64,000 nucleotides of DNA from assembly GCF_900187975.1 (NCBI RefSeq), contig NZ_FZPC01000005.1, positions 186,001 through 250,000 of the forward strand, read 5' to 3'. Under the pieces are notes generated by a model. The model was not told the origin of the DNA, did no database searches, and saw only the letters and a program-made list of their open reading frames with translations. Shown piece by piece: positions 48,909 through 52,884 of the stretch. Numbering within the stretch: the stretch's first letter is position 1; the number at the start of each line of letters is the position of its first letter. The stretch comes from Pseudomonas delhiensis (GTDB taxonomy: Bacteria; Pseudomonadota; Gammaproteobacteria; Pseudomonadales; Pseudomonadaceae). The position numbers were made by a program, and so were the translations under genes.

Positions 48909-49292
48909 ATGTGGAAACCGGTTCTCGCCATCGCCCTCGGCGCCGCCATCGGCGCGTTGCTGCGCTGGTACCTCGGCCTCAAGCTGAACAGCCTGATGCC
49001 CACCGTGCCCCCCGGCACCCTGGCCGCCAACCTGATCGGCGGCTACATCATCGGTGTCGCCGTCGCCTACTTCGCCAGCGCCCAGGGCATAGCCCCGGAG
49101 TGGCGGCTGCTGATCATCACCGGCTTCTGCGGTGGCCTGACCACCTTCTCGACCTTCTCCGCGGAGGTCGTCACCCTGTTGCAGGAAGGCCGCCTGGCCT
49201 GGGCGATGGGGGCGATCGTGGTGCACGTCAGCGGTTCCCTGGCGATGACCCTGCTCGGCCTGTTCACCGGCAACTGGCTGATGGGCAAGTGA
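48909..49292 (+). CDS. crcB: fluoride channel CrcB (Fluc)
   Basis: A 127-residue Fluc channel with four membrane helices, which dimerises in antiparallel fashion and expels fluoride. Family landmarks are [15 protein letters not shown], the asparagine in [14 protein letters not shown], and [15 protein letters not shown] lining the pore. ATG 48909 follows AAGGACAGG; a longer frame from 48780 covers the riboswitch and is rejected. Regulated by the upstream fluoride riboswitch. Confidence 0.96.
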
Positions 49293-49297
49293 ACCGC

Positions 49298-49326
49298 CGC
49301 GGGGGCGCCGGATGGCCGCCCCCGCG
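49298..49326 (+). terminator. GC hairpin after crcB
   Basis: CGCGGGGGC (49298-49306) pairs with GCCCCCGCG (49318-49326). There is no T-run, so termination here would be weak or factor-dependent. Confidence 0.4.
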
Positions 49327-49399
49327 CAGGCAAGCCCCTCCGCGCATCCATTCCCTTCACGCCAAGGCTGGCGCGGCCTCGCCGCCGGCCCGGGGCGTT

Positions 49400-49415
49400 G
49401 TGAAAAAAACGTCAA
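49400..49415 (-). promoter_or_regulatory. ColR-box-like site upstream of colR
   Basis: Read on the minus strand, TTGACGTTTTTTTCAC fits at every fixed position the ColR consensus I recall from P. putida, (T/C)(T/C)NA(C/G)NN(C/T)TTTTTCAC. It lies 61 bases before colR, suggesting autoregulation. Confidence 0.55.
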
Positions 49416-49418
49416 AGA

Positions 49419-49439
49419 CGCTTAAGTTCCAATTAAGCG
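49419..49439. promoter_or_regulatory. perfect inverted repeat in the colR promoter region
   Basis: CGCTTAA-GTTCCAA-TTAAGCG has 7-base arms and a 7-base spacer. It ends 4 bases before a -10-like TAGTCT (49443-49448), so a bound protein would overlap the -35 region. Confidence 0.5.
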
Positions 49440-49475
49440 AGCTAGTCTAGGGTGCCCTGCAAAGCGGAGAGGAAC

Positions 49476-50159
49476 ATGCGGATTCTGTTGGTTGAAGACA
49501 ATCGGGACATCCTGGCCAACATGGCGGATTACCTGGGGCTCAAGGGTTACACGGTGGATTGCGCGCAGGACGGCTTGTCCGGCCTGCACCTGGCGGCGAC
49601 CGCGCACTACGACCTGATCGTCCTGGACGTGATGCTGCCTGGCCTGGATGGTTTCACCCTGTGCCGGCGCCTGCGCGAGGACGCGCGGCGCGACACCCCG
49701 GTGATCATGCTGACCGCCCGCGACCAACTGGACGACCGCCTGCAGGGCTTCCGTTCCGGCGCCGACGACTACCTGCTCAAGCCCTTCGCCCTGTCGGAAC
49801 TGGCCGCGCGCATCGAGGCGGTGCTGCGCCGGACCCAGGGCGGCGGCCGCCGCGAACTGCAGGTGGCGGACCTGAGCTACAACCTCGACACCCTGGAAGT
49901 GAACCGCGGCGGCAGGCCGCTCAAGCTCAACCCCATCGGCCTCAAGCTGCTGGCGGTGCTGATGCAGAAGAGCCCGCACGTGGTGCGCCGCGACGTGCTC
50001 GAGGAAGCCGTCTGGGGCGACGACTGCCCGGACAGCGACAGCCTGCGCAGCCACGTCCACCAGTTGCGCCAGGTGATCGACAAGCCTTTCGCCATGCCCT
50101 TGCTGCACACCGTCCACGGTGTCGGCTACCGCCTGGCGGAGGAAACGAATGGAGTATAG
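49476..50159 (+). CDS. colR: two-component response regulator ColR
   Basis: This 227-residue OmpR-family regulator has the acidic pair E7/D8, phospho-acceptor D51 (LIVLDVMLPG) and LLKPFA in the receiver domain, and a winged-helix DNA-binding domain (about 130-224). Length and order equal those of P. putida and P. aeruginosa ColR, which protect membrane integrity under Zn, Fe, phenol and polymyxin stress. ATG 49476 follows GGAGAGGAAC. It overlaps colS by 11 bases. Confidence 0.92.
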   Translation: MRILLVEDNRDILANMADYLGLKGYTVDCAQDGLSGLHLAATAHYDLIVLDVMLPGLDGFTLCRRLREDARRDTPVIMLTARDQLDDRLQGFRSGADDYLLKPFALSELAARIEAVLRRTQGGGRRELQVADLSYNLDTLEVNRGGRPLKLNPIGLKLLAVLMQKSPHVVRRDVLEEAVWGDDCPDSDSLRSHVHQLRQVIDKPFAMPLLHTVHGVGYRLAEETNGV

Positions 50160-51426
50160 GCAGAGCCTTTCCCGCCGGATCGTCTTTGCTTTCGTGTTCA
50201 TGACCGCGCTGGTCGGCGGCCTGTTTTCGCTGAGCATCGTCGGCGTGGTGCACGTGGTCGAGGAGCGCCTGATTTCCCGTGACCTGGGCGGCGAGCTGGA
50301 CCGCATCATCAACGAGGACCTGCGCAGCGGCAGGGGCCCGCGGCTGGACCCGGGCATGCGCTTCTTCGTCAGCGACGGCGTCGGCGTCTATGCCATGCCG
50401 CCGGCGCTGCGGCGCCTGGAGTCGGGCTTCCACGAGGTGTTCGACGGCGAGCTGTCGTTCCATGCGCTGGTGCGCGACGCCGATGGCCGCCGCTACGTGC
50501 TGCTGCAGGACCAGAGCGATTTCGAGGCGCGCGAGCAGGTCCTGTACGCTGCCGTGGTGACCGGCTACGTGCTCAGCCTGGCGCTGGCCGGCCTGCTCGG
50601 CTGGCTGCTCTCGCGCAAGGTGATGGAGCCGGTGGTGCGCCTGGCGCGCCAGGTGCGCCACCGCGACCAGTTGCTGGACCTGGCGCCGCCGCTGGCGCCG
50701 GACTACGCCCACGACGAGGTCGGCGAACTGGCGGCGGCATTCGACTATGCGATCGGGCAACTGCACCAGGTGCTGACCCGGGAAAAACTGTTCACCAGCG
50801 ATGTCAGCCATGAGCTGCGCACGCCGCTGATGGTGATCGCCAGCAGCAGCGAGCTGCTCGCCGAGGAACCGGGCCTGAGCCCGAAGGCGCGTACCCAGCT
50901 GGCGCGGATCACCACCGCCAGCGAGGAAATGCGTGACCTGGTGCAGACCTTCCTGATGCTGGCGCGCTCGCGCACCAAGGAGCTGGACATCGCCCCGCGG
51001 GCCGGCCTGCAGCGCATCGCCGACGACCTGGCCGGGCAATGGCGCGGGCCCATAGAGGCCAAGGGGCTGCAGCTGATCTACGAGGTGCAGGCGGTGCCGC
51101 CGGAGCAATACAACGCGGCCTTCCTGCGCTCGGTGATGAGCAACCTGCTGCGCAACGCCATGCACTACACGGATGCAGGACACATCCGCTTGCAATTGTC
51201 CGCCAGCGGTTTCGTCGTCGAGGACAGCGGCCAAGGCATCCCCGAGGAGCAGCGCGAGCGCATGTTCCAGCCCTTCGTCCGCGGCCCGCAACAGCGCGGC
51301 GAGGGCCTTGGCCTGGGCCTTTCGCTGGTGAAGAGGATCTGCTCGGCGGAAGGCTGGGAGGTCAACCTGACACCGGCACAGCCACACGGCTGCCGTTTCG
51401 AGGTCCGCCTGGTCGGCGAGGCTTGA
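50149..51426 (+). CDS. colS: sensor histidine kinase ColS
   Basis: The 425-residue kinase has two membrane helices (about 11-36 and 132-156) around a periplasmic loop of about 95 residues. The residues reported to bind Zn and Fe in P. putida ColS fall at exactly the same numbers: E96, H105, E126 and E129 (the last two in FEAREQ). HAMP precedes the H-box DVSHELRTPL with H221. ATP-site motifs are NLLRNAMHY, DSGQGIPEEQ and GLGLGLSLVK. Its start lies inside colR. Confidence 0.92.
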   Translation: MEYRQSLSRRIVFAFVFMTALVGGLFSLSIVGVVHVVEERLISRDLGGELDRIINEDLRSGRGPRLDPGMRFFVSDGVGVYAMPPALRRLESGFHEVFDGELSFHALVRDADGRRYVLLQDQSDFEAREQVLYAAVVTGYVLSLALAGLLGWLLSRKVMEPVVRLARQVRHRDQLLDLAPPLAPDYAHDEVGELAAAFDYAIGQLHQVLTREKLFTSDVSHELRTPLMVIASSSELLAEEPGLSPKARTQLARITTASEEMRDLVQTFLMLARSRTKELDIAPRAGLQRIADDLAGQWRGPIEAKGLQLIYEVQAVPPEQYNAAFLRSVMSNLLRNAMHYTDAGHIRLQLSASGFVVEDSGQGIPEEQRERMFQPFVRGPQQRGEGLGLGLSLVKRICSAEGWEVNLTPAQPHGCRFEVRLVGEA

Positions 51427-51438
51427 CGAATTTTTCAC
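51423..51438 (+). promoter_or_regulatory. ColR-box-like site before the methyltransferase gene
   Basis: TTGACGAATTTTTCAC overlaps the colS stop codon and matches the ColR consensus at all fixed positions but one (A at position 8 instead of C/T). A -10-like CAGAAT lies about 25 bases downstream (51460-51465), so the box sits where an activator would bind. Confidence 0.5.
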
Positions 51439-51505
51439 ATGCGCATGACCGCATGGATACAGAATCACCCGTAGTTTCGTATAAAAAATGAGCAGGAACC
51501 CCATC

Positions 51506-52177
51506 ATGAGCGACAAGCCCGTCGAGCTCGAGTTTTCCCAGAAGTACGACCGTCAGCATGCCGAGCGCTACCTGCGCAAGCATCGCAGTGGGCTGTCTCG
51601 GAAACTTTCCCATTGGCGCGATGTCCAGATCGCCCGCCAGGCGCTCAAGCTGGCCGGCCAGCCGAACCTGGTGCTGGATCTGCCGTGCGGTGCCGGCCGC
51701 TTCTGGCCGATGCTGGCCGAGAAGGACAACCGGGTGATCATCGGCGCGGACAATTCCGCCGACATGATCGCCGTGGCCTGCGCCGGCCAGCCGGAGGAGG
51801 TTGTCAAACGCGTGCGACCTTTGCAGACTTCGGCGTTCGCCATCGATTTGCCGGACAACGCCGTCGACAGCATCTTCAGCATGCGCCTGATGCACCACAT
51901 CGGTGAACCGAGCGACCGCATGACCATGCTGCGCGAGTTCCACCGCGTGACCCGCGACAGCGTGATCCTTTCGCTGTGGGTCGACGGCAACTTCAAGGCC
52001 TGGAAACGTCGTCGCGCCGAGGAAGGGCGCAAGAAGCACGCGTACCAGAACCGCTTCGTGATTCCTGCCCGCACCATCGAGGAGGAATTCCGCCAGGCCG
52101 GGTTCGCGGTGCAGGACCATATCGATTTCGTCCCGCTGGTGCACATGTGGCGGGTCTACATTCTGCGTAAGGAGTAA
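51506..52177 (+). CDS. SAM-dependent methyltransferase (WarA / PA4379 type)
   Basis: A 223-residue class I methyltransferase. The SAM motif I reads LVLDLPCGAGRFWPMLAE (about residue 58), followed by IGADNSADM and the MRLMHHIGEP motif. In P. aeruginosa the matching gene, downstream of colRS and called warA, affects LPS modal length. ATG 51506 with AGGAA at correct spacing is preferred to ATG 51488, which has none. It is coupled to the next gene by TAATG. Confidence 0.85.
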   Translation: MSDKPVELEFSQKYDRQHAERYLRKHRSGLSRKLSHWRDVQIARQALKLAGQPNLVLDLPCGAGRFWPMLAEKDNRVIIGADNSADMIAVACAGQPEEVVKRVRPLQTSAFAIDLPDNAVDSIFSMRLMHHIGEPSDRMTMLREFHRVTRDSVILSLWVDGNFKAWKRRRAEEGRKKHAYQNRFVIPARTIEEEFRQAGFAVQDHIDFVPLVHMWRVYILRKE

Positions 52178-52884
52178 TGATGGGCGCTGATTTGGCAGCT
52201 CTGCAGCGAATTTCCGGTGAAGATGCCATCGATCGCTGGTTGCAGATTCCCGGCAAATGGGTAGAGGAGCCGAACCGGCGCCGCGGCGGCGAGAGCGGGG
52301 TCCAGCGCGTGCTGACCGACGATGGCCGCCTGCTCTATCGCAAGCAGCAGGTCGGGCACATCTACCGTGACCTGCTGCACCCCTTCGGCTACCCGACCGC
52401 CATCCGCGAGCGCGATGCGCTGCAGGCCGCCGCGTCCCTGGGCGTCAAGGTGCCGACCCTGGTCTACGCCGGCTGCCGCAAGGTGGACGGCGAATGGCAG
52501 GCCCTGCTGGTCACCGAGTCGCTGGACGGCTATTCGAGCCTGGAAGACTGCTACGCCCGCGGCGACCACGAGCGCTGGGGCGAGGCCGTGCACCAGCGCG
52601 TGCTGCAGCAGTACGGCAAGACCCTCGCCAGGCTCAACCTGGGCCGCTGGCAGCATGGCTGCCTGTACCTCAAGCATGTCTTCGTCAAGGTCGAGGGCGA
52701 GCAGATCGACGTGGCCCTGATCGACATGGAGAAGGCCCGCCAGCGTTTCAGCGCCAGGCGCGCGGCCCGTCACGACCTGCGCCAGGTGAAGCGCCGTTCG
52801 TCGTGGACGGAAGCGCAATGGCAAGCCTTTGTCTATGGTTACGAGGCGGCGTTTGGCAGCGCCATCAAAGGGTTGCAGGCATGA
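52177..52884 (+). CDS. InaA/WarB-type lipopolysaccharide kinase-fold protein
   Basis: A 235-residue Kdo/WaaP-like kinase-fold protein with QRVLTDDGRLLYRKQQVGHIYRDLLHPFGYPT, then RERDALQAAASLGVKVPTLVYAG, VTESLDGYSS, a catalytic-loop-like HGCLYLKHVFV and VALIDMEKARQRF resembling the DFG region. In PAO1 this is inaA (warB). It shares the ColRS context with the methyltransferase, consistent with LPS core modification. The start overlaps the previous stop by one base; the next ATG (52180) is equally possible. Confidence 0.85.
   Translation: MMGADLAALQRISGEDAIDRWLQIPGKWVEEPNRRRGGESGVQRVLTDDGRLLYRKQQVGHIYRDLLHPFGYPTAIRERDALQAAASLGVKVPTLVYAGCRKVDGEWQALLVTESLDGYSSLEDCYARGDHERWGEAVHQRVLQQYGKTLARLNLGRWQHGCLYLKHVFVKVEGEQIDVALIDMEKARQRFSARRAARHDLRQVKRRSSWTEAQWQAFVYGYEAAFGSAIKGLQA

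Follow-up and report, generated by a model that had tools for sequence, protein, structure and literature searches.

BqsRS and ColRS both sense metals and envelope stress, and the two systems are usually studied separately. For ColR of P. putida, the consensus (T/C)(T/C)NA(C/G)NN(T/C)TTTTT(C/G)AC has been derived from seven footprinted sites, and PP0903 is a proven target with a footprinted site; ColR also binds a site lying between colR and PP0900, a divergent PAP2 gene that is the target of this site, and no clear response of the colR promoter itself to ColR is reported (passages of PMC2689224). According to passages of PMC4074579, P. putida colR does not respond to zinc or iron. The BqsR (CarR) operator of P. 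aeruginosa is described in passages of PMC4682146 as TTAAG(N)6TTAAG, a spacer of 5 or 7 bp or a reversed upstream pentamer nearly abolishing activity; the gene most upregulated by BqsR, PA14_04180, has four pentamers in register, and several high-scoring sites show no Fe(II) induction. PMC12632274 cites a paper whose title presents CarO as a CarSR target, and in its P. aeruginosa Ca2+ transcriptome table colR stands at 0.4 log2.

The colR locus and its ColR boxes

The stretch of P. delhiensis DNA analysed here, 64,000 nt in full and referred to as the window, carries the following genes.

48909..49292, + strand: crcB (fluoride channel; PF02537, and NF010792 above cut-off), the upstream neighbour of colR on the same strand
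49476..50159, + strand: colR, OmpR-family response regulator (PF00072, PF00486), named by gene order and similarity
50149..51426, + strand: colS, sensor histidine kinase (HAMP, HisKA, HATPase_c)
51506..52177, + strand: SAM methyltransferase gene (PF13649), counterpart of PP0903 by position
52177..52884, + strand: Kdo/WaaP-type LPS kinase gene of inaA type (PF06293; the match to NF007383 is below its cut-off)

The order crcB, colR, colS, methyltransferase gene, kinase gene is that of the Pseudomonas colRS locus, and we take the last two genes to be warB and warA, respectively. The upstream neighbour differs between species, since P. putida has a divergent PAP2 gene upstream of colR, whereas in P. 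delhiensis this place is occupied by the same-strand crcB. Of the 25 congeners, 23 have a crcB match in the 1.5 kb preceding colR, in contrast to none of 80 named colR loci, the latter being the best 80 of a longer scan. Tblastn returned no PAP2 match at the P. delhiensis colR locus, and the whole assembly likewise gave none, although the same query protein does match congeners.

Two ColR boxes are located near these genes.

49400-49415, minus strand: candidate ColR box TTGACGTTTTTTTCAC, an exact fit to the consensus in passages of PMC2689224
49400-49404 and 49411-49415, in + strand letters: its half-sites GTGAA and GTCAA
51423-51438, + strand: second ColR box TTGACGAATTTTTCAC, with 1 mismatch, preceding the methyltransferase gene

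The original prediction had placed a ColR-box-like site upstream of colR on the strength of a ColR consensus. That consensus agrees with the one given in passages of PMC2689224, and the site is confirmed, TTGACGTTTTTTTCAC matching all 16 positions with 0 mismatches. It is the single exact match in the window; at up to one mismatch, the window has 3 matches, where shuffled sequence would give 0.33. The second site, TTGACGAATTTTTCAC, is the positional counterpart of the footprinted PP0903 site of P. putida. In comparison with the PP0900/colR site of that species, the P. delhiensis box is the same, has the same orientation and likewise lies upstream of colR, but it is nearer to colR, has no divergent PAP2 gene beside it and stands in register with a second operator.

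That second operator, a perfect TTAAG-N6-TTAAG pair, is present at colR in 21 of the 25 congeners (hereafter box-bearing genomes); at the corresponding place the other four have no near match to the pentamers. The full ColR consensus is retained at colR in six of the 21 (L001-L006), the remainder agreeing at 13-15 of the 16 positions. The half-sites GTGAA-N6-GTCAA are nevertheless kept in all 21, with one GTCAA base altered in L002 and L007. Sites before the methyltransferase gene have TT(G/A)AC-type half-sites in 28 of 30 loci (L001-L030; the other ColR matches of 5 of the 37 matching genomes and more distant matches lie outside this set), their T-tract being loosened as at colR. A third half-site-like ATGAC follows in P. 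delhiensis one 11-bp step further downstream (TTGAC-N6-TTCAC-N6-ATGAC, 51423-51449), and NTGAC occupies the third position at 26 of the 28 methyltransferase-gene sites.

Tandem TTAAG pentamers and the predicted promoter

Three further features separate the ColR box from colR.

49419..49439, no strand assigned: inverted repeat CGCTTAA-N7-TTAAGCG, a by-product of the bases flanking the direct repeat
49422..49437, + strand: predicted BqsR/CarR-type operator TTAAG-N6-TTAAG, with 0 mismatches (pentamers 49422-49426 and 49433-49437)
49448..49453, + strand: predicted -10 element TAGGGT (TAnnnT), 10 bp past the downstream pentamer

The inverted repeat had been singled out in the original prediction as the possible site of a second factor near the colR promoter. 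The letters are present and begin 3 bases beyond the ColR box, as described, and no occurrence of this exact sequence is expected by chance. Irrespective of sequence, the window has 13 inverted repeats with perfect 7-bp arms and a 7-bp spacer, so the palindrome as such is unremarkable. The feature that goes beyond chance is the nested direct repeat, with five distinct perfect places in the assembly and with its retention at colR in 21 of 25 congeners beside a flank in which all 60 columns vary. Furthermore, since TTAA is self-complementary, a TTAAG direct repeat with suitable flanks resembles a palindrome. Across the box-bearing genomes the palindrome is perfect in only four of 21 and falls elsewhere to as few as 4 of 7 arm bases, whereas the direct pentamers are whole in all 21. 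A true inverted-repeat operator of another dimeric regulator, to which the perfect 7-bp palindrome in the window would point, was therefore rejected as highly improbable. The proposal of a second factor at colR is itself well supported, with BqsR now the candidate and a direct rather than an inverted repeat as its site.

The four half-sites of the promoter region share a single 11-bp register, the ColR half-sites lying two 11-bp steps upstream of the TTAAG pair, and this common register is more telling than the 3-bp gap. The array GTGAA-N6-GTCAA-N6-TTAAG-N6-TTAAG-N10-TAnnnT is found in 21 of 21 box-bearing genomes, apart from the altered GTCAA base in two of them; TAnnnT follows the downstream pentamer by 10 bp in every case, with variation in its three inner bases. 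Among these 21 genomes, which are mutually related and were selected for perfect pentamers, the 10 TTAAG columns and the 3 TA..T columns are invariant and 1 of the 10 columns of the ColR half-sites varies, in contrast to the 60-bp flank preceding the ColR box (ungapped), where all 60 columns vary, and to colR itself, with variation at 93 of its 103 fourfold codon sites. The spacer bases TTC (49427-49429) are also invariant in the 21 genomes, which the BqsR operator model leaves unexplained.

The same layout recurs at other promoters of the genus. Pentamer-N6-pentamer-N10-TAnnnT is present at 26 of 26 carO-type genes (25 genomes) and at all 22 bqs operon promoters read out of 25 loci (those of L159, L162 and L165 not being among them); both groups are presumed, from their families and the literature, to be BqsR targets. 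At carO, the N10-TAnnnT follows the last pentamer of the array and not the perfect upstream pair. In the controls, none of the 18 boxes upstream of pmrA has it when read in the direction of the gene, and outside the colR and carO loci it appears in a single one of 22 readings of perfect TTAAG sites. The position of the colR operator relative to the -10 element is that of the carO-type and bqs promoters, and the sites, their register, their conservation and this common layout are established here.

No promoter emerged when 49200-49600 was scanned for the sigma-70 consensus. If the usual 17-bp spacer is assumed, the -35 hexamer falls at 49425-49430, within the operator. The downstream pentamer would then lie between -35 and -10, a position that could equally suit a repressor; at PA14_04180, by comparison, the last pentamer is placed over the -35 element (passages of PMC4682146).

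Candidate regulators of the TTAAG site

P. delhiensis has 21 ColR-like places in its genome, ColR included, and the following one is the BqsR/CarR orthologue.

C74:74841-75509: BqsR/CarR orthologue, with 8gc6 and 9yfa, both named CarR, as best PDB matches

The match to 8gc6 (CarR receiver) scores 250 bits and that to 9yfa (CarR DNA-binding domain) 179 bits. All 25 congeners encode BqsR, and a sample of 119 genomes from the family has it in 107. A BqsR-like box agreeing at 8 of 10 positions lies upstream of two small ORFs, taken for putative PepSY proteins, that precede the P. delhiensis bqsR orthologue.

Perfect TTAAG-N6-TTAAG pairs occur at five distinct places in the 6.7-Mb assembly, one of them at colR. 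Another stands about 70 bp upstream of a gene for a BOF/OB-fold protein (PF04076, NF033674), taken to be a putative carO by family and promoter. Its promoter has four pentamers in register, and PA14_04180 is presumably the carO of P. aeruginosa. No common function is apparent in the surroundings of the other sites in this genome. In the 25 genomes, the most recurrent perfect sites are those at carO (22 genomes) and colR (21). By its letters, a third perfect site, TTAAGAA(G/C)(C/G)CGTTAAG, recurs in 16 of the 25, and in G015 its distance from colR is about 156 kb; in four of the five loci considered (L217, L218, L225, L228, L232) no ORF of at least 80 codons starts within 200 bp downstream of it.

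The P. delhiensis colR site is the same TTAAG-N6-TTAAG direct repeat as the P. aeruginosa operator at PA14_04180, and differs in that its putative target is another two-component system and in being joined to a ColR box. On balance, we consider it probable that in this clade colR is transcribed from a promoter activated by BqsR (CarR), to which a ColR site of older date is joined. Several observations count against BqsR: besides the predicted position of the downstream pentamer between -35 and -10 and the absence of the box from the P. putida-like named loci and from G012, the colR spacer, mostly TTCCAT, is without the TG found in most bqs and upstream carO spacers, and there are the uninduced P. 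aeruginosa sites, the 0.4 log2 of colR in the Ca2+ table and the indifference of P. putida colR to zinc and iron mentioned above.

The PmrA box, (C/T)TTAA(G/T)-N5-(C/T)TTAA(G/T), is nearly identical to the TTAAG motif, and PmrA, or a paralogue of QseB/PmrA type, might instead bind the tandem site and place colRS under PmrAB control. The pattern YTTAAK-N5-YTTAAK is indeed matched on the minus strand by CTTAATTGGAACTTAAG. TTAA recurs with an 11-bp period in both kinds of site, and in most of the box-bearing relatives each TTAAG pentamer is preceded by C or T; unlike the PmrA box, however, the P. delhiensis colR site has A before the second. At the protein level, the P. delhiensis PmrA orthologue shares 46 of 100 DNA-binding-domain residues with BqsR, the highest value among its own regulators aligned, and the recognition region of PmrA orthologues resembles that of BqsR in 14 of 19 residues. 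Of the 22 genomes that encode a PmrA orthologue (at least 81% identity), 21 have the colR box, and the three that encode none lack it, although on the tree this co-occurrence amounts to one independent comparison.

Upstream of pmrA itself, presumed PmrA boxes TTAAC-N6-TTAA(G/T/C) occur in 18 of 20 genomes (the 22 PmrA-bearing genomes except G004 and G020), and the box of G016, on its minus strand, reads TTAAG-N6-TTAAG without a mismatch. Read on the gene's strand, these near-palindromic boxes appear to differ in layout from the colR site: TAnnnT is found 10 bp away in none of the 18, and position 5 of the upstream pentamer is C in 18 of 18, whereas the colR site has G at position 5 of both pentamers. 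PmrA as the sole reading was set aside, the BqsR operator being matched, and is kept as a rival that we regard as unlikely. The boxes before pmrA (L192-L211) are mostly palindromic, CTTAAC-N5-GTTAAG, start 89-107 bp before the start codon and are perhaps autoregulatory. A perfect site, TTAAGATGGTTTTAAG, is also located about 105 bp before the gene of a further PmrA/QseB-like regulator (G016:C18:43239, G015:C1:2851036).

Returning to BqsR, its binding at colR, the signal that it conveys, the direction in which it acts and any concerted action with ColR are inferred from sequence. In its phosphorylated form, BqsR would occupy the two TTAAG pentamers in a head-to-tail arrangement covering the -35 region. 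The half bound downstream would lie 10 bp short of the -10 element, and BqsR would recruit RNA polymerase for transcription of colRS. In this way, when BqsS/CarS senses Fe(II) or Ca2+, the amount of the Zn/Fe(III)-sensing ColRS may rise. ColR, bound in reverse orientation to the neighbouring half-sites of the same 11-bp register, may boost or dampen the effect of BqsR.

Possible role of the ColR half-sites and spread of the array

The original prediction had also suggested that colR may be autoregulated. This is contradicted by the P. putida data, in which the colR promoter has no clear response to ColR (PMC2689224) and none to zinc or iron (PMC4074579). In P. putida-like named loci, the ColR box is located further upstream (-112 to -114) and a TTAAG site is missing, so the P. 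putida negative is not fully transferable. In P. delhiensis and its relatives the ColR half-sites stand in constant phase with the TTAAG site and are kept in all 21 box-bearing genomes, including 18 in which the 1.5 kb upstream gives no PAP2 match; the orientation of the ColR box, in turn, faces away from colR. Control of colR by its own product, which would be compatible with control by BqsR, is a reading that we hold to be rather doubtful.

Alternatively, the box may be a relic of a lost divergent PAP2 gene, or may serve an unseen divergent transcript, with no role at colR. Its orientation suits a divergent target, and the P. delhiensis assembly is without a PAP2 match; a divergent PAP2 gene (PF01569, tblastn, within 1.5 kb upstream) is still present at the locus in three of the 21 box-bearing genomes and in three of the four other congeners, as in 31 of the 80 named loci, and the restriction of the full consensus to L001-L006 would also fit a relic. 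On the other hand, decay would be expected in the 18 genomes lacking PAP2, whereas a single half-site column in 10 varies against all 60 columns of the upstream flank, and the loosened T-tract is equally seen in the proven type of target before the methyltransferase gene. We find a relic unlikely; the persistence of the half-sites after loss of PAP2 argues for a possible role at colR.

Outside the box-bearing genomes, the TTAAG pair at 10 of 10 bases is found in none of the 80 named colR loci, the best 80 of the scan, and at 9 of 10 within 150 bp in four. In the colRS DNA tree, the 21 box-bearing genomes form one clade, weakly supported (80/67), and one change is needed; in the protein tree, the boxless pair G013/G021 falls inside the box-bearing clade (85/73), which would require a loss too. 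G012, the nearest proxy for P. aeruginosa among the congeners, has the receiver closest to the PDB CarR (97%), and its colR locus is without the box. BqsR control of colRS is best read as having been gained after the split from the P. aeruginosa-like lineage.

In kind the finding is an ordinary one, a known regulator's operator in a known promoter. The literature passages searched state no link of BqsR or PmrA to colR. The BqsR reading predicts that one stress-sensing system would set the level of another. A fuller proposal, which we put forward tentatively and with some doubt, is a cascade in which BqsRS drives ColRS through the in-phase array of four half-sites, BqsR and ColR binding next to each other and acting jointly, and which arose once after the split. 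If this is true, colRS would integrate Fe(II)/Ca2+ and Zn/Fe(III) signals, and work on the usual model species would not reveal the cascade. The single short promoter is suited to testing the joint action of two OmpR-family regulators. A direct link of this sort, absent from the P. putida-like and P. aeruginosa-like loci examined, would show Pseudomonas rewiring its metal and envelope defence.
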